Of a DNA stretch of 41,443 nucleotides, positions 2,921-30,616 are shown piece by piece. The stretch is taken from positions 1-41,443 of the forward strand of contig SOER01000028.1 of NCBI GenBank assembly GCA_021646405.1. Direction: 5' to 3'. This stretch comes from Candidatus Loosdrechtia aerotolerans. GTDB lineage: Bacteria > Planctomycetota > Brocadiia > Brocadiales > Brocadiaceae. Made by a program: the position numbers and the translations under genes. The notes under the pieces are model-generated. The model saw nothing but the letters and a program-made list of their open reading frames with translations. It was not told the origin of the DNA and did not search any database. Positions within the stretch are counted from its first letter, which is position 1; each line of letters opens with the position of its first letter.

Positions 2921-4624
2921 TTAGGAATCTCGCATTTTAATATTGTAATCATGAATTTTTCGGTAAATAGTGCGCCTGCTCATTCCGAGTAAATGCGCAG
3001 CCATAACCTTGTTCCATGAGGTTTTTTTAAGCGCCTGGAGAATTGCCTTCGGCTCATCTATTTTTTTATCTTCAAGAAAAGAAATCCTGGTCTCATAGAA
3101 CTCTTTAAATTCAAGTGGCAGGTGATTCACCGTGATAGTGTCCTGGTGGCACACGACAAAAGCGTGTTCCAAAGTGTGCTCCAGTTCCCTGATATTTCCG
3201 GGCCAGTGATATTCCATAAATAATTTTTGAACATCTGAAGAGATTGCGGTTATTTCTTTACCTAACTTCTTATTGAACTTATTCAAAAAATGTTCTGCCA
3301 GAAGCGGTACATCTTCCATTCTGTCCTTCAGGGACGGTAAGGTTATTTCTACAACCTTCAGACGGTAGTAAAGGTCTTCCCGGAATTCACCACTTTTAAT
3401 TTTTTCCTTTAAATTCTTATTCGTAGCAGCAACAATCCGTACGTTTACTTTAATAGGGGTTGAGTCCCCCACCCTCTCAAATTCCCTTTCTTGTAATACC
3501 CTCAGGAGCTGGAGCTGCATTCTGGGCGATACGTCGCCGATTTCGTCTAGGAAGATCGTCCCGCCATTTGCCTTTTGAAACCGACCAACCCTGTCCTGTA
3601 CAGCACCGGTAAATGCACCTTTTACATGACCAAAAAGTTCACTTTCAAGTAGGCTTTCTGACAAAGCGGAACAATTTACCTTAACAAAAGGTTTATTGTT
3701 CCCTTGCCGCTTGTAATGTAGCGCCTCTGCAACAAGACCTTTACCTGTACCGCTCTCTCCGGTAATGAGTACCGTTGTCTGGACATCAGCCAGGTTTTCT
3801 ATGAGAGAATAAATCGTTTGCATCTTCTCACTCTTTCCAATGATATTATGGAGTTGTTGGCGTTCTATCATGTCTCTCTCTAGATCTGCCAGATGAGTTT
3901 CATCCCTTACGATGAGAACGGCACCAGCAAATATGCTGCTGTTGTACAGAAGTGGATATGAGGTAACATTTACCACCTGGTGTGGTCGAAGTTCATGCTT
4001 ACACTCCAGGCGGTATATTTCCAAAGGCTTTTTTTCCTGAATAGTTTCCCGAAGTGCATTAAGGCACTGCTCACTGCAAAACTTTGGAAGGGAACCGATC
4101 TGTTTTCCAATGTCGTTTCGTGACAAGCTACAAATACTTCTGGCTGCATCGTTAATCTCAAGCACCGAGAGTTCCTTATCAACCGTAATAATAGCATCCT
4201 TAACGCTACTGAATATAGCCTCAAGATTTGATCTATATTTCTCCTTCTCGTCTAATAATGTTTTATATCGTAACGCCTTGTCTGTAACATGGAGCAGCGT
4301 TTCTTGTCGTACGGGCTTAAGAACATAATCAAAGGCACCAAGCCTGAGTGCATCCAGGGATGTCTCAATATTAGGTGCCCCTGTAATCATAACCACAGGA
4401 GTGGTAAGTCTTAACATCCTGACCTTCTTGAGGATATCAATACCGGTTTTACCCTCCAGTATTATATCCGCAAATATCAGATCGAAATCGGCTCTGTTGA
4501 GTGCGTCCAGAGCTTCATCATAGTTCTTGGCCGTTGCAACTTCGAACCCTTCATCAAAAAGAAAACTCTCAAAGGTAAACCGGATATTCTCTTCATCATC
4601 AATTACAAGTATTTTAGCTTTCAT
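2921..4624 (-). CDS. Sigma-54-dependent response regulator (REC-PAS-AAA+-Fis), copy 2
   Basis: Paralogue of the gene at 466-2169, collinear without length change (567 aa), and probably from a tandem duplication. The receiver has D9-D10-E11, D53 and K103. The PAS region keeps C165, C183, C187 and C208. The AAA+ domain has GESGTGKG at 289-296 (glycine where copy 1 has glutamate after the Walker lysine), intact GAFTGA (336-341) and Walker B LDE (359-361). The C-terminal Fis-type HTH is nearly identical in its recognition helix (LLGMSRRTIYRKIHDY), so both copies probably bind the same or overlapping sites. Divergence is concentrated in the receiver domain and parts of the PAS domain, which suggests different input signals with a shared output. 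The 751-bp gap before copy 1 argues against a single short operon. Confidence 0.93.
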   Translation of the reverse strand: MKAKILVIDDEENIRFTFESFLFDEGFEVATAKNYDEALDALNRADFDLIFADIILEGKTGIDILKKVRMLRLTTPVVMITGAPNIETSLDALRLGAFDYVLKPVRQETLLHVTDKALRYKTLLDEKEKYRSNLEAIFSSVKDAIITVDKELSVLEINDAARSICSLSRNDIGKQIGSLPKFCSEQCLNALRETIQEKKPLEIYRLECKHELRPHQVVNVTSYPLLYNSSIFAGAVLIVRDETHLADLERDMIERQQLHNIIGKSEKMQTIYSLIENLADVQTTVLITGESGTGKGLVAEALHYKRQGNNKPFVKVNCSALSESLLESELFGHVKGAFTGAVQDRVGRFQKANGGTIFLDEIGDVSPRMQLQLLRVLQEREFERVGDSTPIKVNVRIVAATNKNLKEKIKSGEFREDLYYRLKVVEITLPSLKDRMEDVPLLAEHFLNKFNKKLGKEITAISSDVQKLFMEYHWPGNIRELEHTLEHAFVVCHQDTITVNHLPLEFKEFYETRISFLEDKKIDEPKAILQALKKTSWNKVMAAHLLGMSRRTIYRKIHDYNIKMRDS

Positions 4625-15795: not shown

Positions 15796-16509
15796 ATGGA
15801 AATTAAGATAACAAATGCCAACAACAATAAAATTGACAGTGTACTAGCAATGGACACTGTCAATCATAACGCAGCGAGAACCGATGCAATCATTCGGGAA
15901 TATAATCACCTGGCCCCTGAATACGATAGACGCTGGTCCTTTTATATCGCCGAAACCATTCAGGAGACACTGAAACGATTAGATATTAAACCGGATAGTA
16001 AGCTCCTTGATATAGGATGCGGTACAGGTTCATTACTTCAGGCAATTTCACTTCGGTATCCATCAGTCTGTTTAGTCGGAATAGATCTTAGCAGAGAAAT
16101 GTTGAAAGCTGCACATAAAAAACACATAAAGAAAAGCCATCTTATTACAGGACAATCACAGGAATTGCCCTTCCGTTCAAACAGTTTTGATACCGTGGTT
16201 TCCTGTAACGTTTTTCACTATTTACATAAACCTCAAAAGTGCATACGGGAAATTATCCGCATCCTTAAACCAGGTGGAAAAATCATAATTACCGACTGGT
16301 GTGATGACTATATTGCATGTCGTATATGCGATCTTTTTCTGCGTTTGTTGAATCGTGCTCATTTCAAAACATACGGAAAACGCACATGCGAACAGATACT
16401 CCGGAATACCGGATGCATACAGGTACACGTTGACCGATATAAAATTAACTGGTTATGGGGGCTTATGACGGCAAAGGCACAAAAGCCTTCTCAGAATACG
16501 CATGGCTAA
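15796..16509 (+). CDS. Class I SAM-dependent methyltransferase
   Basis: Rossmann-fold methyltransferase of 237 aa. Motif I is LLDIGCGTGSLL (about 74-85), the acidic end of strand 2 is VGIDLSREML, and motif IV/post-IV is FDTVVSCNVFHYL followed by ILKPGGKIIITDW. This pattern is close to the UbiE/Coq5-like methyltransferase_11 group, but the substrate cannot be named. The last eight bases overlap the start of the following P-type ATPase gene, so the two are translationally linked. A shared role with the cation pumps is suggested by this overlap but has no obvious chemistry. Confidence 0.88.
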   Translation: MEIKITNANNNKIDSVLAMDTVNHNAARTDAIIREYNHLAPEYDRRWSFYIAETIQETLKRLDIKPDSKLLDIGCGTGSLLQAISLRYPSVCLVGIDLSREMLKAAHKKHIKKSHLITGQSQELPFRSNSFDTVVSCNVFHYLHKPQKCIREIIRILKPGGKIIITDWCDDYIACRICDLFLRLLNRAHFKTYGKRTCEQILRNTGCIQVHVDRYKINWLWGLMTAKAQKPSQNTHG

Positions 16510-19318
16510 TATACTTTGGCATACAATACCCGTTGATGCAGTAATACAGGAACTCGGTACCAATATCACAAGCGGACTGAGCAACAGTGAAGCCCAAAAA
16601 AGACTTGCAGAATACGGGTATAATCAACTGGAAGAAAAAAGGAAATTTTCTCCCTTTCTGCTTTTCTTAGGGCAATTTAACAGCTTTATTGTATGGGTAT
16701 TAATTGCAGCCGCCGTAGTTTCCGGGATTTTAAAAGAACTGGATGATGCCTTATCTATTATTGCAATCATTATTATCAATGCGATTATTGGGTTCATACA
16801 GGAATATCGTGCAGAAAGATCCCTTGCAGCTTTGCAAAAATTATCAACACCGTTTTCCAAGGTCAAACGCGACGGAGAGGTACATTCCATTCCCTCACGA
16901 GAAATTGTACCCGGCGATGTTATCCTGCTGGAAGCCGGCGACTATATCCCTGCTGACGGCAGGCTCTGTTCTGCTGTTAACCTGAGAACAGAAGAGGCAT
17001 CGCTTACCGGCGAATCAACACCTGTAGGGAAATCAGAAGAGCCGATCTCCAATCCCTCTTTACCTATTGGAGATAGGAAGAATATGGTATTTATGGGCAC
17101 TTCTGTCACGGGTGGTAAGGGTACCAGTGTTGTCGTATCGACAGGGATGGGTACAGAACTAGGAAAGATAGCAGGTCTTATTCAGACAGCAGGGAAGGAA
17201 GAGACCCCTCTTCAACGTAAACTTCAAGCCTTTGGGAAAAAGCTCGTATATTTATGCATGGGAATTGTAACCATCGTCTTTCTTTTAGAACTCTGGAGAA
17301 AAGATCCGCTTTTAGAATCATTTCTCGTTTCAGTAAGCCTTGCAGTCGCTGCTATTCCCGAAGGATTACCAGCTATAGTAACAATCTCTCTGGCGCTTGG
17401 TGTACAGCGTTTGGTAAAACACCATGCATTGATACGAAAACTGCATGCGCTGGAAACCCTCGGATGTACTACGGTCATCTGTTCAGATAAGACTGGTACA
17501 TTAACTCAAAACGAAATGACCCTTAAAAAGATATTTTCCGGTGGTAAAACTTTTGATATCTCAGGTTCAGGCTACACTCCTGAAGGAGAAATAACCCTGC
17601 ACAAAAAACCTGTCTCAGAGATTGACCGGCGAACGGTAAAATTCATCTTAGGAATTGGGACATTGTGCAGTAATGTATCACTAAAACAGGAGAATGCTAC
17701 CTGGAAAGTTATTGGCGACCCAACAGAAGGTGCTATTGTAAGTGCCGCTGTGAAAGCAGGTGTCTCAAAAGAGGCACTGGAAAGAGTAATGCCTCTCATA
17801 TCAGAGATTCCCTTCAGCTCGGAACGAAAGAAGATGTCTACGGTAAGAAATACGCCGCACTCCTTTACTTTGGTCTGTGAAAAAGGTGCACCGGATATTG
17901 TCCTAAAAGATTGTACAAAAATTTACATGAACGGAGAGATCAGGGCCATAACAAAGAAAGATAGCGAAATCATTCTCAAAAAAAACAACCAGATGGCCGG
18001 ATCTGCCCTGCGTGTGCTCGGCGTTGCATGTAAGACTCCCGGTCATAATTATGCTAAAATCGCACCCGACAGCATAGAAAAAGATATGACCTTTATCGGA
18101 TTATTAGCTATGATCGATCCTCCGCGGCCGGAGGTGAAAGATGCAGTTGCCATATGCCATACGGCAGGTATAATGACTGTTATGATTACCGGTGATCACA
18201 GGAATACAGCACAGGCAATCGGCAAGGAACTTGGTTTTTTCCGTGATAATTTTAAAATTATTGAGGGAACAGCATTAGATGAACTCTCTGATGATGAATT
18301 AGAAAAAAGGGTACCCGGAATATCTGTCTATGCACGAGTCTCTCCCGAACATAAACTCAGGATAGTAAAGGCGTGGAAAAAACATGGTGAGGTTGTGGCC
18401 ATGACTGGCGATGGCGTTAATGATGCCCCTGCAGTAAAAGAGGCTCATATCGGTATATCAATGGGTATTACCGGTACCGATGTTACGAAAGCCGCCTCTG
18501 ATATTATTGTGACTGATAACAACTTTGCCTCTATTGTTGCGGCAATAAGAGAAGGAAGAAGCATTTATGATAACATAAGGAAATCTATCCATTACCTGCT
18601 CTCCTGTAATGCAGGTGAAATATTAACCATGCTCTTTGCATCAATTCTCAACCTCCCCCTCCCCTTATTCCCTATTCAAATATTATGGATTAATCTGGCA
18701 ACCGATGGATTACCGGCACTGGCATTGAGTATCGATACGGTAGATCCCAATATCATGCAATCCCGGGCAAGAAGGTCAACTGAGCAGATTGTCGATAAAC
18801 GGCTTGGTAAACTGATCCTTTTTCAGGGTTTTCTTATAGCAGCAAGCACCCTTCTTGCCTATTTATTTATCCTTTATTCTACCAGTACGGTAACGTACGG
18901 TTACTTCAATATCTATTACTGGTTTATCAATGAAGTGATACCTTTTAAGTTAAGCGGCGATCTTTATAAGGCAAGAACCGTTGCTTTCTGCGTCATGGTT
19001 GTATCACAATTGTTCCATTCTTTTAACTGCAGAAGTGCAGAACGTTCATTGTTTTCGATCGGTATCTTTACCAATAAAAAACTCCTCCTGGCAACGGCAC
19101 TTTCATTATCCATACAGATCGCAATTATATACACACCGTATTTCCAGAGCATCTTTAAGGTAGTCCCTTTAACGTTTAATGAGTGGCTCATCATCTTTGG
19201 ATTCTCCTCGTTTCTATTTACCGTTATGGAAGGAATAAAATACGCTAGAAAGCATAGAGGAATAACCTTCTTATTCATGAACCGAAATATCTTCAAGAGG
19301 ACTGCTCATAATGATTGA
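16502..19318 (+). CDS. Ca2+-type (P2A) P-type ATPase, standard architecture
   Basis: Cation pump of 938 aa. The order is an N-terminal cation-ATPase domain, actuator domain with TGES (169-172), M4 motif PEGLP (286-290), phosphorylation motif DKTGTLT with D329, hinge TGDGVNDAP, and a C-terminal six-helix membrane module. M5 has N and E in [10 protein letters not shown], and M6 has N, T and D in [11 protein letters not shown]. These correspond to the SERCA calcium ligands, so Ca2+ export (possibly Mn2+) is the best guess. The M8 glutamate of SERCA is glutamine here, as in other bacterial members. The gene overlaps the methyltransferase by 8 bp and the next ATPase by 8 bp. Confidence 0.95.
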
Positions 19319-22300
19319 TACATCATGGCATACGCTCCAGACTGACGAGGTTATAAGATCCCTTGATACCAATATCAATACCGGACTTACTGAAACAGAG
19401 GTCAAAAACAGAATTAATGAGTATGGATATAATCAACTGGAAGAAAAAAGAAAGTTTTCTCCCATTACGCTTTTCTTAGAGCAATTTAACAGTTTTATTG
19501 TATGGGTATTGATTGGTGCTGCTGCGGTTTCCGGAGCCTTGAGAGAACTGGATGATGCATTAGCTATTATCGCAATTGTCATTATCAATTCGATTATTGG
19601 TTTTATTCAGGAATACCGTGCAGAAAAATCCATTGCAGCCCTGCAAAAAATGTCAGCACCATTCTCAAAAGTACTGCGAAATGGCGAAATGAATTCCATC
19701 CCTTCCCGGAAAATCGTACCAGGTGATATTATTCTCCTGGAAGCAGGTGATAATATCCCCGCAGATGCCCGGTTATATTCTTCCTTTAATCTGATGACCC
19801 AGGAAGCCTCACTTACGGGTGAGTCAACACCCGTAACCAAATCAACAGAACCAGTCCAGGATCCGTCGCTACCGGTCGGCGACAGGGAAAATATGGTATT
19901 TATGGGAACCTCGGTAACCAACGGCAAGGGCACAGCTATTGTCGTATCAACCGGAATGCATACTGAACTGGGAAAGATTGCAGGGCTTATTCAAGAGGCA
20001 GGAAAGGAAGTAACCCCGCTCCAACTGAGACTACAAGCATTTGGGAAAAAAATAGTTTACCTCTGTTTAGGAATCGTAACGGTTGTCTTTCTTTTAGAAA
20101 TTTTGAGAAAGGGGCTGGAAAAAGATCCGCTTCTTGAAGCGTTTCTCATATCAGTCAGCCTTGCTGTTGCAGCAATTCCGGAAGGATTACCCGCCGTAGT
20201 AACGATAGCATTGGCACTGGGCGTACAGCGTATGGTAAAACGGAACGTTCTGATTCGAAAATTACCTGCAGTGGAAACATTAGGCTGTGCCAATGTTATC
20301 TGTACGGATAAAACAGGTACCCTGACACAAAATGAGATGACGGTCAAAAAGATATATACCAATGGCAAAACCTTTGATGTCTCGGGTATTGGTTATGCTC
20401 CGGAAGGGGATTTTTCCTACCAGAGCATGCCTCCCTCAGAAACTGATTCTGAAGCACTGAAAAAAACTCTTGAAGTTGCTGCCCTATGCAATAATGCCCA
20501 TCTTATAAAAGAAGATAACACATGGAAAATTATTGGTGATCCTACAGAAGGAGCCCTTATCAGCGCTGCCGCAAAGGCAGATATTTTTAAGGAAACGATC
20601 GAAAAGGAATTCCCCCTTATCTCAGAAATCCCCTTTGATTCTGAAAGAAAAAAGATGTCAACAGTACGGGGATTACCTTCTGCGTTCCAGGTTTTTGAAA
20701 AAGGGGCACCGGATGTTATTCTTAAAGATTGTACAAAAATCTCTATTAACGGAGAAGTAAGAGATTTAACAGACGGTGACCGAAGGGATATCCTGAATGA
20801 AAACAACAAAATGACAGAGTCCGCCTTACGTGTACTTGGTGTTGCTTTTAAACCAATTGACCATAAACCTGCAAAACCAATATCCGAAACAGTTGAAAAG
20901 GATATGATATTTGCCGGATTATTGGCCATGATTGATCCTCCAAGACCGGAGGTTAAGGAGTCTGTCGCTACTTGTCGGAAGGCGTGTATAATGACCGTTA
21001 TGATTACCGGAGATCACAAGAATACCGCACGTGCAATTGGAGAGGAACTGGGCATTCTAAGGAAAAAATTAAAGGCCATCGACGGTATGGAACTCAATAC
21101 CCTTTCCGATGAAGCCTTAAAGGAAGAAGTAAAAAAGATAGCAGTATATGCGCGGGTTTCTCCGGAACATAAACTCCGAATTGTGCGGGCGTGGAAAAAA
21201 CAAGGTGCTGTTGTCTCTATGACAGGGGACGGAGTAAATGATGCCCCTGCAGTAAAAGAGGCTAACATTGGTATCTCGATGGGTATTACCGGTACCGATG
21301 TTACGAAAGAGGCCTCTGATATGATTATTACCGATGATAATTTTGCATCCATTGTATCAGCCGTTGAAGAGGGAAGAGGCATTTATGATAACATAAAAAA
21401 AACAATCCATTACTTACTTTCCTGTAATGCGGGAGAGATACTTACCATGCTCTTTGCATCAGTCCTTAATCTCCCCCTCCCCTTATTCCCCATACAAATA
21501 CTATGGATGAATATTGCAACTGATGGATTGCCAGCGCTAGCATTGGGTGTCGATACCGTGGATCCTCATATAATGGAAAAACCAGCCAGGAGGTCAACTG
21601 AACGGATCATCGATAAATCACTTGGTAAACTCATCCTGCTGCAAGGCTTTCTTATAACGGTAAGCACCCTTCTGGCGTATATGTTCACTCTATGTGATGT
21701 AGGCAACATACAACCGGGCAATCTCTTTCATTGGTTTACGAATGAGTTAATATCCGGCTGTTTCAGTGGCACGTTCCCCGGCGATCTTGCAAAGGCAAGG
21801 ACAATTGCATTCTCTGTTATGGTTATATCGCAGTTATTTCAATCATTTAATTGTAGAAACGCAACACGTTCACTATTTGAGGTCGGGGTGTTTACCAACA
21901 AAAAACTTATCCTGGCCGCTTTTTTTTCACTTATCCTGCAGATAAGCATTATCTATATCCCCTATACGAATGGTATTTTTAAAGTAGTTACGCTGGAATT
22001 GCAAGACTGGATTGTTATTTTCGGGTTTTCATCTCTTACATTTTTTGTTATGGAGATAATAAAATATTTTATAAGAAGGACTGAGATACCCCGGGGTATC
22101 GAGGCTGTTGAGATAACAAAAACTGCCGTTCGCGAGGTAAGGCCCCTCTACGATATCGTAAAAAAGCCCGTTCATTATCTACTTTCATGCAATTTCGGAG
22201 AGATTCTGGCAACACTCTTTGCATTCATTTTCAGATTTCCTATACCACTGTCCCCTTTACAAATAGTATGGACAAGTACCGTAACAGATATATTACCGGC

Positions 22301-22838
22301 ACTGGCATTGGGTGCAGATACGATAGATCCTTCTACGGTCCATAGGGTAACCGGAAGATCAGAAAAACAATTCCTCACGAAAAGTTTTATTACCTTAATC
22401 CTCGTTCAGGGTTTCCTGATAGCTTTAAGTACCCTTCTGGCTTATTTCTTCATTTTATATGGAGGCAGCGCCATATTTCTCACTCTCTATGATAATTGGT
22501 TTACCGACAGGGTAATACCATATGAATTGCAAGGAGATATCACACATGCAAGAACCATTGCTTTTTCCGTAATGGTAATTGCGCAGCTATTCCATTCATT
22601 TAACTGTAGAAGTGTGTGGTATTCGGTATTTACAATCGGTGTTTTTACCAATAAACTACTTCTCCTGGCAACTATGTTTTCTTTAGCCCTGCACGTTGCT
22701 ATCCTCTACACCTCTTATACCCGGGATATTTTTCATGTGATACCTTTAGGGTTCTACGACTGGATTATTGTCTTTGGATTCTCTTCGCTCACACTTATTG
22801 TTATGGAGATAATAAAATCCCTGACGAGGAGGGAATAG
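19311..22838 (+). CDS. Ca2+-type P-type ATPase with duplicated C-terminal membrane module
   Basis: Residues 1-920 parallel the upstream pump: TGES (169-172), PEGLP (290-294), D333 in [16 protein letters not shown] (638-646), M5 ligands N706 and E709, and M6 ligands N734, T737 and D738. After a linker of about 30 residues (918-946) the whole M5-M10 module occurs again (about 947-1172, offset 255 residues), giving 1175 aa where the family has about 900. In the second module N961, E964, T992 and D993 are kept, but N734's counterpart is S989 and the glycine after the M6 aspartate is isoleucine. The extra module has no ATPase head of its own. The frame is continuous, with family-like substitutions throughout, so this is not an assembly join of two identical copies. 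Confidence 0.93.
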
Positions 22839-22972: not shown

Positions 22973-24472
22973 ATGAAACAAGCACTTACGTATACATTTT
23001 TTCTCATCTCATTGTTTCTACCTGTTACGTCAATACTGGCTGAAGAAGAACAACCAATAACCAAACCGGTTCCTCTCAGCGAAGAGACGCAAGTATGCAT
23101 ATTATGTCACAGAAATTACACCCCGGGGATAGTAGAGGATTGGCTGAACAGCCGTCACGCAAAAATCACCCCTGATGCAGCGCTTGAAAAACCTGAATTG
23201 GAAAGAAGAATTTCAAATGACAGCGTGCCGGAGCCCTTACGCTCGGTAGCTGTTGGTTGTTATGAGTGTCATACCAGAAATCCATCTGCCCACGAAGATA
23301 ATTTTGAGCATTTTGGATTTAACATCAATGTAATTGTTTCCCCCAACGATTGTAAAACCTGTCATCCTGTTGAAGTAAATGAGTACTCTGTAAGCAAAAA
23401 GGCCTATGCACTGGAAAATCTTCAGAAAAATCCCCTCTACCATAGTTTTGTTGAAACGATTATGGGTTTAAAGGAAGTAAAAGGTACTGAGATTACCCAT
23501 TTGCCGGCTTCAGAAAGCTCAAAGGCAGAAGCGTGTTATGCATGTCATGGTACAAGGATTACGGTCGACGGAATGAAAACGATATCTACCGAGACAGGAG
23601 ATATTCTGGTTCCAAACCTCTTAAACTGGCCAAATCACGGAGTAGGAAGGATCAATCCGGACGGAAGCCGGGGATCGTGCACCCCCTGCCATCCCAGGCA
23701 TAGTTTTTCAATTGAAGTAGCAAGAAAACCCTACACCTGTTCTCAATGTCATCTCGAACCGGATGTGCCTGCATTCGAGGTCTACCGGGAGAGCAAACAT
23801 GGGAACATCTTCTTCTCAAGCGGTCATGAATGGAATTGGGACCCCGTTCCCTGGATAATTGGAAAGGATTTTAAGGTTCCTACCTGTGCTACGTGCCATA
23901 ACAGTCTCTTAGTTACCCCTGCCGGTAAAACAGTTGTACAGAGAACCCATGATTTTGGTGCAAGATTATGGGTCCGAATCTTTGGTTTTGTCTACTCCCA
24001 TCCTCAACCAAAAGACGGAAGAACCTATCTCATTAAGAATAAAGACGGATTGGCTCTCCCCACGGCCTTTGATGGTGAGCCAGCCTCTGAGTATCTCATT
24101 GATGAAAATGAACAGGTGCGCCGGAAAACTGAAATGAAAAAGATATGTAAGAACTGCCATAATACCGACTGGGCCGATAAATACTATACGAAGTTTGAGA
24201 CTACCCTCAACGAAACAGATAAGATGGTCTTATCCTCCACAAAATTAATGTTCAAGGCCTGGAAAGAAGGATGGGCGGATATATCAAATCCCTTTGATGA
24301 AATGATTGAGCATAAATGGATGACTCAGTGGTTTTTCTATGCTAATTCTATTCGATTTGCATCGGCCATGTCAGGCCCTGACTATGCAACATTCAAAAAC
24401 GGCTGGTGGGAATTAACAACAAATTTATATGAACTGCAAGACTTGGTCCAGAGCAAAGAAAGCAAGGAATGA
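22973..24472 (+). CDS. Octaheme cytochrome c of the hydroxylamine oxidoreductase family
   Basis: Exported multihaem enzyme of 499 aa: signal peptide 1-23 (cut near SILA/EEE) and exactly eight CxxCH haem sites starting at C42, C96, C127, C188, C236, C256, C305 and C392. Similarity to HAO is clear around LNWPNHGVGRINPDGSRG and HSFSIEVARKPYTCSQCH. The fourth haem (C188) corresponds to the catalytic haem. HAO-like proteins oxidise hydroxylamine or NO, or reduce nitrite, depending on whether a C-terminal tyrosine cross-links the haem. Y471 (GPDY) lies in the region where such a tyrosine would be sought, but I cannot align it here. No membrane anchor is present. A strong AAGGAGG site precedes the ATG. 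It stands 134 bp after the ATPase gene with no electron-carrier gene beside it. Confidence 0.92.
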   Translation: MKQALTYTFFLISLFLPVTSILAEEEQPITKPVPLSEETQVCILCHRNYTPGIVEDWLNSRHAKITPDAALEKPELERRISNDSVPEPLRSVAVGCYECHTRNPSAHEDNFEHFGFNINVIVSPNDCKTCHPVEVNEYSVSKKAYALENLQKNPLYHSFVETIMGLKEVKGTEITHLPASESSKAEACYACHGTRITVDGMKTISTETGDILVPNLLNWPNHGVGRINPDGSRGSCTPCHPRHSFSIEVARKPYTCSQCHLEPDVPAFEVYRESKHGNIFFSSGHEWNWDPVPWIIGKDFKVPTCATCHNSLLVTPAGKTVVQRTHDFGARLWVRIFGFVYSHPQPKDGRTYLIKNKDGLALPTAFDGEPASEYLIDENEQVRRKTEMKKICKNCHNTDWADKYYTKFETTLNETDKMVLSSTKLMFKAWKEGWADISNPFDEMIEHKWMTQWFFYANSIRFASAMSGPDYATFKNGWWELTTNLYELQDLVQSKESKE

Positions 24473-27885: not shown

Positions 27886-28677
27886 ATGTACAGGAAGTAC
27901 ATTCTTTTTAGAATGGAGTTTTCAGTAAAGTTGAACAAAAATCCTTTAGTCTCGGTCATAATTCCATCATATAACTGCAGTCAATTCCTTCCACAATGCC
28001 TTAATGCTATTAAATCATCAGACTATTCTCCATATGAGATCATTGTTGTTGATGATGCATCAACCGACGATAGTCCGAAAATAGCCTGTGGAGCAGGAGT
28101 AAACGTTATCCATATGGATAAGCAATCAGGCCCCGGAGCAGCACGAAATGCCGGTGCGCAGCATGCAAACGGAGAGATTTATTTCTTTGTTGATTCAGAT
28201 GTAGTTATCAACAAAAATTCAATACGTTGTATGGTATCGAAATTCACAGAGCACCCTGAGGTCGGGGCAATGTTTGGCTCATACGATAAACAACCGTCAG
28301 CCCCTAATTTCCTTTCACAATATAAAAACCTCTTTCATCACTTTATTCACCAAACTTCATACAATGAGGCAAATATATTTTGGGCGGGGTGTGGTGCAGT
28401 CAGAAAGGAAGTATTTCGTGAGGTAGGAGGATTTAATACCGTACAGTATACGAAACCATCCATTGAAGACGTAGAATTAGGACTTAGGATAAGTAGGATA
28501 AGCAAGCAAGGCTACAGGATCTTACTGATAAAAGAGCTCCAGGTAAAACACCTGAAGAGATGGGGGGTTTATTCACTCCTCTACACAGATATCTTCTGCC
28601 GTGCTATTCCCTGGACAAATTTAATCCTGACATCGCAGAAAATGCCAAAAGGACTAAACCTTAAGAAAAGTCTTTAA
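27886..28677 (+). pseudogene. Family 2 glycosyltransferase, catalytic part of a frameshifted gene
   Basis: A GT2 catalytic domain of 263 aa (or 254 from the ATG at 27913): LVSVIIPSYNCSQFLPQC, IIVVDDASTDDSP, GPGAARNAGAQHANGE, metal-binding FFVDSD, and the acceptor-side WAGCGAVRKEVFREVGGF with IEDVELGLR. The frame stops at 28675-28677 right after LNLKKSL. The expected membrane tail continues immediately in the next frame from 28665. A single -1 shift near AAGAAAAGTCTTTAA would fuse the two. Without the tail, activity might persist as a soluble domain, but the normal family member is one polypeptide. Confidence 0.75.
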
Positions 28678-29405
28678 TAAGTTCACTTTGCGTTGGGCTT
28701 CTTGCCGGGCTGGCTGTATTCTTCTTGCTCGAATACAAGCTCTTCTCTCATGTTCCCCCGGGATCTTTTTATTATTATATCAAATTCTCAGGTGTTATTA
28801 TTTTTCTCATCGTCAATTTTGTTATTTTTTATCTGCGTATACTTCAACTCTTGGAGAAAGGACGACATTTAAAATTCTTATTGCCAATACTGTTTTGTGT
28901 TGTTTCGGGATTTACATTCACCATAACAACCTTCTTCTTTTTTAATCAAAAACTCTTCATCTGTATTCCTAATACAATTGTATATTATTATGTAAAACAC
29001 ATACTTCTGATACTGTTTCTTGTTTCTCATTTTATGTATTTCTATTTTAAAATTCCTCCTGTCAAAACGAGGAGCTGGGGGTGGAATGTAATGGTGCGAA
29101 TATTTTTTATCATTGCTGCAAGCATTATCGTTACCTTATCAGGAATAACACTACGCAGTAACTTTCATTATAACCTCCTGCCTTCTGCGGCAGCCCTGTA
29201 TTTTACCTTTATCCTCATCACGATGAATATTTTACTGCTGAACAGCCAGCTTTATCGTTTCTTTTACACCTTAAAAGGCTTTAGATTCTTATTATTGGCA
29301 ATCTTTTCCCATTTCCTTTATTACTTCTACAGTGGTGGAACCTTTGTGATTTGTTGGCTAATCCACTCCGCCAAAAGATTTCGTATGGTAAGATTAATGA
29401 GTTAA
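28665..29405 (+). pseudogene. Membrane tail of the frameshifted glycosyltransferase
   Basis: This reading frame is open from 28665 and encodes KSLISSLCVGLLAGLAVFF and then about six membrane helices, ending with FLLLAIFSHFLYYFYSGGTF. That ending is the signature tail of a group of membrane GT2 proteins (a LHxLYYLYSG-like segment). It has no good ribosome-binding site; the first start-like codon is TTG at 28725. The 13-bp overlap with the catalytic frame and the matching domain order show these are two halves of one gene split by a frameshift. A sequencing error at the A-rich stretch is the alternative. Confidence 0.7.
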
Positions 29406-29454: not shown

Positions 29455-30006
29455 ATGTCAAATCATAAACAGAAAAAAGCAATTATCTTTGGAGCCGGAC
29501 CGGCGGGTTTAACATCAGCATATGAACTGCTTGATAAAACAGACATAGTACCTATTGTGTATGAGATGACAAACGATATTGGGGGTATTTCAAAGACGGT
29601 AAAATATAAGGGAAACCGGATAGATATTGGCGGGCACCGTTTTTTTTCAAAATCCAGGAGGATTATGGACTGGTGGTGTAATATACTCCCCTTACAGGGA
29701 GCCCCGGCAAAAGATGACAGGATTTTAAAACGGGTTATTCCTGTTTCACATGAAGTAAAACGAAAAATAATAAAAAATGGTAACATCTGGACAGAACCCC
29801 CTCCCGATCCGGAAAAGGAACATAAAGTGTTGCTGCACAGGAACCGGTTGTCGAGAATTTTTTATTTACGAAAATTTTATGATTACCCGATTTCCTTAAA
29901 ATTACAAACGATAAAAAATCTCGGTCTTAGAAAAACCCTGAAAATAGGATACAGTTTCTGCAATACCAATAAAGGATCTAATCGCCCGAATACAACCTTC
30001 ACCTGA
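29455..30006 (+). pseudogene. FAD-dependent oxidoreductase (UDP-galactopyranose mutase-like), N-terminal part
   Basis: Begins with a dinucleotide-binding fold: [18 protein letters not shown], then [13 protein letters not shown] and [12 protein letters not shown], as in amine-oxidase/UDP-galactopyranose-mutase-like proteins found in glycan clusters. Family similarity runs to LKIGYSFC (about 29961), after which the frame encodes unrelated [14 protein letters not shown] and stops. The rest of the protein appears in another frame from about 29954 onward ([12 protein letters not shown]). The middle of the protein, on the order of 100-150 residues by my recollection of the family, is missing. This is an out-of-frame internal deletion, so the gene is dead. 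Confidence 0.8.
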
Positions 30007-30016
30007 TAAAGAAATC

Positions 30017-30616
30017 ATGGACATTGCCTTAAACCTTGTATACAGAGATTTTATAACTGCGGGGATTTTAACACAGGAACTAAAAGTCAAAAACACAACA
30101 AAATTCAAAACAGTAAACAACATCATCCCTGACAACTGGATATATGTTCAGGAAAAAGACGTAAAGCTCGGAAGAATTCAGGTGTTCAACAATTGGAGTC
30201 CGTATATGGTTGCTCAAGAGAATGATATTTGGTTAGGATTAGAATACTTTTGTAATGAAGGAGATGAATTATGGAGTATGCCAGATAAAAACTTTCTCCA
30301 ATTCTGTATTCAGGAACTGGAAAAGCTTAATTTCATTCATTCAAATAATGTGAAAGACGGCTGTGTTATACGGGTACCAAAGGCCTATCCATCATATATA
30401 GGCAGTTATAATTGCCTGTACAAGCTTATTGAATACGTAAAGACAATCGATAATCTGTATCTTATCGGCAGAAACGGCATGCATCGTTACAACAATCAGG
30501 ATCATTCAATGATGTCTGCAATAGTTGCAGTTGAAAACATCATTCATGGTATAAGGAATAAGGATAATGTATGGAACATTAATATTGAAGAAGAGTACCA
30601 TGAGAAAACAACATGA
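30017..30616 (+). pseudogene. FAD-dependent oxidoreductase, C-terminal part of the deleted gene
   Basis: Continues the protein begun at 29455. The homologous frame actually opens near 29954 ([19 protein letters not shown]) before the first ATG at 30017. Family features are IPDNWIYVQEKDVKLGR, QVFNNWSPYMV, WLGLEYFCNEGDELW, a VIRVPKAYPSY segment, and the terminal FAD-contacting LIGRNGMHRYNNQDHSM. It is well conserved up to the break, so the deletion is probably recent. It overlaps nothing and ends 60 bp before the GT-C gene. Confidence 0.8.

Follow-up and report, generated by a model that had tools for sequence, protein, structure and literature searches.

The window, a stretch of 41,443 nucleotides from Candidatus Loosdrechtia aerotolerans, encodes a P2A-type ATPase of 1175 aa (pump B; 19311..22838, + strand) that contains two M5-M10 membrane modules, as seen in the sequence and in the Pfam and NCBIfam matches. 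The second, head-less module is kept by purifying selection, less strictly than the first, and the pattern of substitutions indicates that its transport and coupling residues are eroded and its anchor half is retained. The explanation that we consider best, at roughly even odds (about 0.5), is that the second module acts in cis as a pseudo-transport module, kept for its anchor helices, and would stabilise or regulate pump B.

The two membrane modules of pump B

Up to residue 918, pump B is an ordinary P2A-type pump. The head (residues 1-694; 19311..21392, + strand) consists of the A, N, and P domains and M1-M4, and it was recognised by the catalytic motifs DKTGT, TGES, and GDGVND (GDGxND in general form), the M4 motif PEGLP at residues 290-294, Pfam matches (PF00122, PF13246, PF00702, and PF00690), and its position in a tree of pump heads. 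In the first M5-M10 module (residues 695-918; 21393..22064, + strand), the ion ligand positions N706, E709, N734, T737, and D738 are intact, and the last three of these (the M6 N..TD ligands) were invariant among 39 aligned pumps. Pump B scored 851 bits against the NCBIfam model of PMR1-type calcium pumps (TIGR01522) relative to a cut-off of 798 bits, a total that sums three stretches and is raised by the extra module; the neighbouring single-module pump (pump A) scored 726 bits. The best PDB sequence match of pump B was LMCA1 (E=2e-190), and its closest solved relatives were LMCA1 and SPCA1. With P2A pumps of the PMR1/SPCA type and with LMCA1 (lmo0841), pump B shares all of the head motifs and domains and the first module, and its ligand positions in M4 and M6 are likewise intact. 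It differs from them by the addition of a linker and a second M5-M10 module: whereas those pumps have ten helices and end after M10, six further helices were predicted in pump B, for a total of 16. The core of pump B is a member of the P2A family (PMR1/SPCA/LMCA1 type), and its architecture is a variant. Judged from the sequence, the cation pumped is most likely Ca2+.

The first module is followed by a linker of 31 residues (residues 919-949; 22065..22157, + strand) that can be aligned with the Jettenia-type linker described below, RRTEVPMGVAAAEVAKIAVDEVKSLYAT, and the C-terminal end of which resembles the S5 stalk of ordinary pumps. The second module (residues 950-1175; 22158..22835, + strand) has S989 in place of N734 and I994 in place of G739, and it has lost the motif of the M6-M7 loop (L67). 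A first-pass annotation of this DNA had claimed that residues 692-917 (21384-22061) recur at residues 947-1172 (22149-22826), and this was confirmed; the constant offset of 255 that it gave applies over most of the repeat, with a deviation of a few residues in the L78 loop. In a global alignment, the two modules were identical at 121 of 220 positions (55%), and the module of pump A was 69% identical to the first module of pump B and 55% to the second. The Pfam family Cation_ATPase_C (PF00689) matched pump B twice (total E=2.4e-94), and the second module alone gave a value of 6e-43. The double match to PF00689 and the 55% identity rule out a chance resemblance of the two modules. We also considered separate translation of the second module and rejected it, as no ribosome-binding site is evident at the ATG of M914, and a methionine in the Jettenia-type linker was found on inspection to be missing from the window linker.

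An AlphaFold2 model of residues 921-1175 gave a confident M5-M10 bundle (pTM 0.81), a fold that was driven by the alignment, which contained ordinary modules. A Foldseek comparison of this model with SPCA, SERCA, and LMCA1 gave TM-scores of 0.70-0.78. In the full-length model (pTM 0.57), the six further helices were in register with M5-M10, and their placement was not confident. In any ten-helix pump topology the linker would begin and finish on the cytoplasmic side, and sixteen helices would therefore be topologically legal.

Distribution and history of the double module

The double-module build, at 1167-1175 aa, was found in four genomes of two anammox genera: the window genome and, among the 33 same-family genomes searched, three genomes of a second genus with pumps of 1167 aa (Ca. 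Jettenia ecosi J2, L037/L118, and the loci L117 and L119; here called Jettenia-type). One of these three assemblies is a single contig of 3.82 Mb. The head, the linker, both modules, and a multihaem cytochrome downstream are shared between the Jettenia-type loci and that of pump B, the linkers being homologous and the window linker aligning with RRTEVPMGVAAAEVAKIAVDEVKSLYA. The Jettenia-type pumps differ in that the M6 Asp of the second module is replaced by Asn and that no pump A is found alongside. When 392 Planctomycetota genomes were searched with a 100-residue stretch spanning the junction, full-length matches came from these four only; all other matches in that set covered one half or the other. 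Outside Planctomycetota, the coverage was the best 80 relatives of the second module among species-level genomes, in which Ca. Jettenia ecosi was the sole one with the double build. The first-pass annotation had advised looking for the build in other Brocadiales, and it does recur there, with the recurrence limited to one other genus. The domain search of the phylum covered the best matches listed, from which a very divergent second module elsewhere could escape.

Other Planctomycetota also have longer pumps (about 1140-1343 aa), and these appear to carry other extensions (a solute-binding protein domain or long C- or N-terminal stretches), and no module duplication was seen in them. C-terminally extended P2A pumps (1321-1343 aa) were found at L147:2901-6866 (G018), at L148 (G016, two genes), and at L149:5244-9275 (G022, of the same genus as the window). 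The extension of the G018 pump matches an extracellular solute-binding domain (SBP_bac_1, E=1.7e-32), after an apparent extra membrane helix, and the C-termini of the L148 and L149 pumps are similar to it. Such a fusion of pump and binding protein may be just as unusual as the double-module pump. The window's own genome encodes a P-type pump of 1068 aa with an N-terminal PTS_EIIA_2 domain (E=6.6e-28) on contig C11 (L155:3609-6812, - strand). On contig C22 (L122:5607-7530), it has a third P2A pump gene that is broken by an internal, out-of-frame deletion; its head stops in the P domain, the remainder is present only from L89/M9 on, and the surrounding genes are similar to those around an intact pump of G016 (L120).

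In the head tree, pump B and the three Jettenia-type pumps form one clade (97/96), and the G022 single-module pump (917 aa; L121) is sister to pump A (100/99). The first-pass annotation had named homologues in close relatives that end at residue 920 as an argument against the double build; the G022 pump is orthologous to pump A and not to pump B, and so the argument as worded does not apply to it. Pump A, which groups with this single pump and not with the second module, was rejected as the source of the second module. In a module tree calculated without the L78 loop, the first modules form one clade (99/91) and the second modules another (100/99). In the first module tree, which included L78, the stem of the second modules was long (0.51) and both modules of the double pumps were grouped (85/83); this grouping was gone without L78, and a single clade for both modules was not rejected by the AU test (p=0.55). 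In the Jettenia-type pumps, the L78 loop of the first module agrees with that of the second at 15 of 30 positions, versus 7 of 30 with the first module of the window. Gene conversion is perhaps behind this likeness, and it may account for the nesting in the first module tree.

Because the heads, the first modules, and the second modules are each monophyletic, one fusion or duplication preceded the divergence of the two genera, barring a transfer of the gene from one to the other. The source of the second module could be either the first module of pump B itself or another tandem pump. The annotation's view of the duplication as old agrees with these trees: each module has its own clade and synonymous sites are near saturation, and a fresh duplication was rejected on both grounds. 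Microhomology of 8 bases was looked for at the junction and was absent.

Pump A (16502..19318, + strand; 938 aa) is an ordinary single-module P2A pump, the end of which overlaps the start of pump B by 8 bases, and its own start is overlapped by a gene for a SAM-dependent methyltransferase (15796..16509, + strand). Directly downstream of pump B is a gene for a multihaem cytochrome c with eight CxxCH motifs (22973..24472, + strand). The pump-cytochrome locus is itself old, since the same cytochrome follows the pump not only in the window but also in the three Jettenia-type genomes (3' of the double pump, about 68% identity) and in G022 (3' of the single pump, 72%). This cytochrome, conserved directly 3' of the pump in both genera, is weakly similar to hydrazine dehydrogenase. 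Elsewhere in the window, the neighbouring ORFs 27886-28677 and 28725-29405 match one ORF of 486 aa in L119, and are probably a glycosyltransferase gene split by a frameshift; 29455-30006 and 30017-30616 are apparent halves of one gene resembling FAD-dependent oxidoreductases/amine oxidases, possibly also frameshifted; and 466-2169 and 2921-4624 (- strand) encode tandem NtrC-type response regulators that are very similar and both 567 aa long.

Selection, residue loss, and alternative explanations

The loss of residues from the second module was evaluated at the 77 module positions that show at least 90% conservation among ordinary pumps; S5/M5, M6, and the M6-M7 loop account for 37 of these and M7-M10 for the other 40. 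It was found that 8 of the 37 positions were lost in all four second modules, whereas the number for M7-M10 was 0 of 40 (Fisher p=0.002); the contrast was weaker when a change in any one of the second modules sufficed for a position to be counted (14/37 versus 6/40, p=0.04). The eight lost positions include the M6 Asn, the Gly after the M6 Asp, and three positions of L67, which is the loop that contacts the P domain in P-type ATPases. The L67 changes affect the counterparts of I754, M755, and E764 in all four genomes, and so these conserved L67 residues of a transport module are absent from the second module. In SERCA, TM1-TM6 are mobile and transducing, and TM7-TM10 form a rigid anchor (PMC7313052).

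Between the window and the Jettenia type, dN/dS (Nei-Gojobori) was about 0.21 for the second module versus 0.11-0.13 for the first. The differences in the second module numbered 110 at 507 non-synonymous sites versus 91 at 153 synonymous sites (pN 0.217, pS 0.595; one-sided p=7e-18), and in a crude neutral simulation the reading frame was kept open in 0 of 2000 replicates. Within the Jettenia-type genus, dN/dS was 0.32-0.46 for the second module and 0.22-0.28 for the first. These estimates are based on 17-24 differences per pair, and of the three pairs of second modules one did not fall significantly below neutrality (p=0.1). The expectation in the first-pass annotation that the second module is under selection was therefore supported by the comparison of dN/dS that it had proposed.

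The dN/dS of the second module, about 1.5-2 times that of the first, is compatible with weak constraint. The strongest rival explanation is that the module is a tolerated by-product: a tandem pump copy that lost its head through an in-frame deletion and was then joined to pump B, harmless and without a specific function, with constraint on its insertability only. The overlapping tandem of pumps A and B is in keeping with such an event, as are the deletion between head and M9 in the contig C22 gene of the same genome, the raised dN/dS, and the decay of transport residues. However, the module has been kept in two genera at a near-saturating synonymous distance and at the cross-genus dN/dS given above, no conserved M7-M10 position has been lost in all four copies, and loss of the roughly 255 C-terminal codons would be easy. 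The selection data make this explanation less likely, and we regard it as improbable, though worth keeping in mind.

The retention of the M7-M10 positions would also fit a device for dimerisation, or a pseudo-dimer, in which the second module takes the place of the M5-M10 of a partner pump and drives or blocks B-B or B-A assembly; in the window, pumps A and B overlap and are probably co-translated. P2A pumps are, however, generally taken to work as monomers, and the double pump of the three Jettenia-type genomes has no pump A beside it, so that we view this possibility with considerable doubt.

The annotation had also raised a second ion path. This would require the second M5-M6 to bind a cation still, through the M5 Asn/Glu and the M6 Thr/Asp, and to provide an extra route, a leak gate, or a regulatory ion site in cis, with one head serving two membrane halves. 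Its list of residues (N961, E964, T992, and D993 retained, S989 and I994 substituted) was correct for the window, and N961, E964, and T992 are common to all four second modules; D993, however, is kept in the window genome only and is Asn in all three double-module relatives. In all four genomes the M6 Asn is replaced by Ser and the following Gly by Ile. In LMCA1, the equivalent M6 residues are calcium-coordinating side chains, with the Asn being primary (PMC11977196), and this Asn/Asp pair of conserved calcium ligands is not found intact in the second module. There is in addition no M4 PEGLP half-site and no P domain as a driver, and conserved L67 positions have been lost. Because it lacks the A, N, and P domains and M1-M4, and because its ion site is degraded, the second module is in all likelihood not a pump, and a second ion path seems very unlikely. 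Finally, an assembly or sequencing artefact that joined two genes in error near 22080, for which only the division of the window assembly into 61 contigs might speak, is excluded because the same build with a homologous linker is present in three independently assembled genomes, one of them in a single contig.

A possible pseudo-transport module in cis

The erosion pattern, with M7-M10 spared, favours a structural or regulatory role, as far as can be judged from residues. In the cis-acting explanation that we prefer, a P2A pump in the common ancestor of the window's genus and the Jettenia-type genus would have gained a second M5-M10 module, through either a tandem duplication within the gene or the fusion of a tandem pump copy lacking its head. 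Without A, P, and N domains and M1-M4, this module would not be energised and would not transport. It would instead pack in the membrane beside the working pump, mainly via M7-M10, and may stabilise the pump or tune its turnover or ion affinity. The restriction of the double build to four known genomes, with a same-genus relative that does not have it, counts against this explanation, as do the raised dN/dS of the second module and its uncertain placement in the full-length model.

Accessory transmembrane partners are known to stabilise or tune P2 pumps, such as the beta subunit and FXYD proteins of the Na,K-ATPase, neuroplastin with PMCA (PMC6127144), and phospholamban and sarcolipin with SERCA. 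These accessory subunits are unrelated one-helix proteins, whereas in pump B the partner would come from the pump itself, as a degenerate copy of its transport half that is fused to it. To our knowledge, the M5-M10 half of P2A pumps works only when coupled to its own head. In SERCA2b, an eleventh transmembrane helix (TM11) regulates the pump in cis (PMC7313052). Both SERCA2b and pump B are P2A pumps that are extended in cis by membrane helices at the C-terminus, and in SERCA2b the extension is known to be regulatory; that of SERCA2b is one unrelated helix with a luminal tail, whereas that of pump B is six paralogous helices with a predicted cytoplasmic C-terminus. The second module might act by analogy with TM11 and with the accessory subunits of other P2 pumps. 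The remark in the first-pass annotation that no P2A pump of this build is known to have been described agrees with our literature searches, in which open-access full texts on P-type ATPases with a duplicated, fused, or extra membrane module, on FUPA families, and on anammox pumps yielded no description of such a pump.

As a conserved copy in cis that lacks a head, the second module would amount to a naturally occurring pseudo-transport domain, and the double pump offers a test of the contribution of M7-M10 alone, which is hard to separate in ordinary pumps. It would also be an unusual means by which a pump brings along an accessory subunit of its own. The restriction of the double build to two genera and the constant adjoining of the same multihaem cytochrome suggest, speculatively, a link to anammox membrane physiology.
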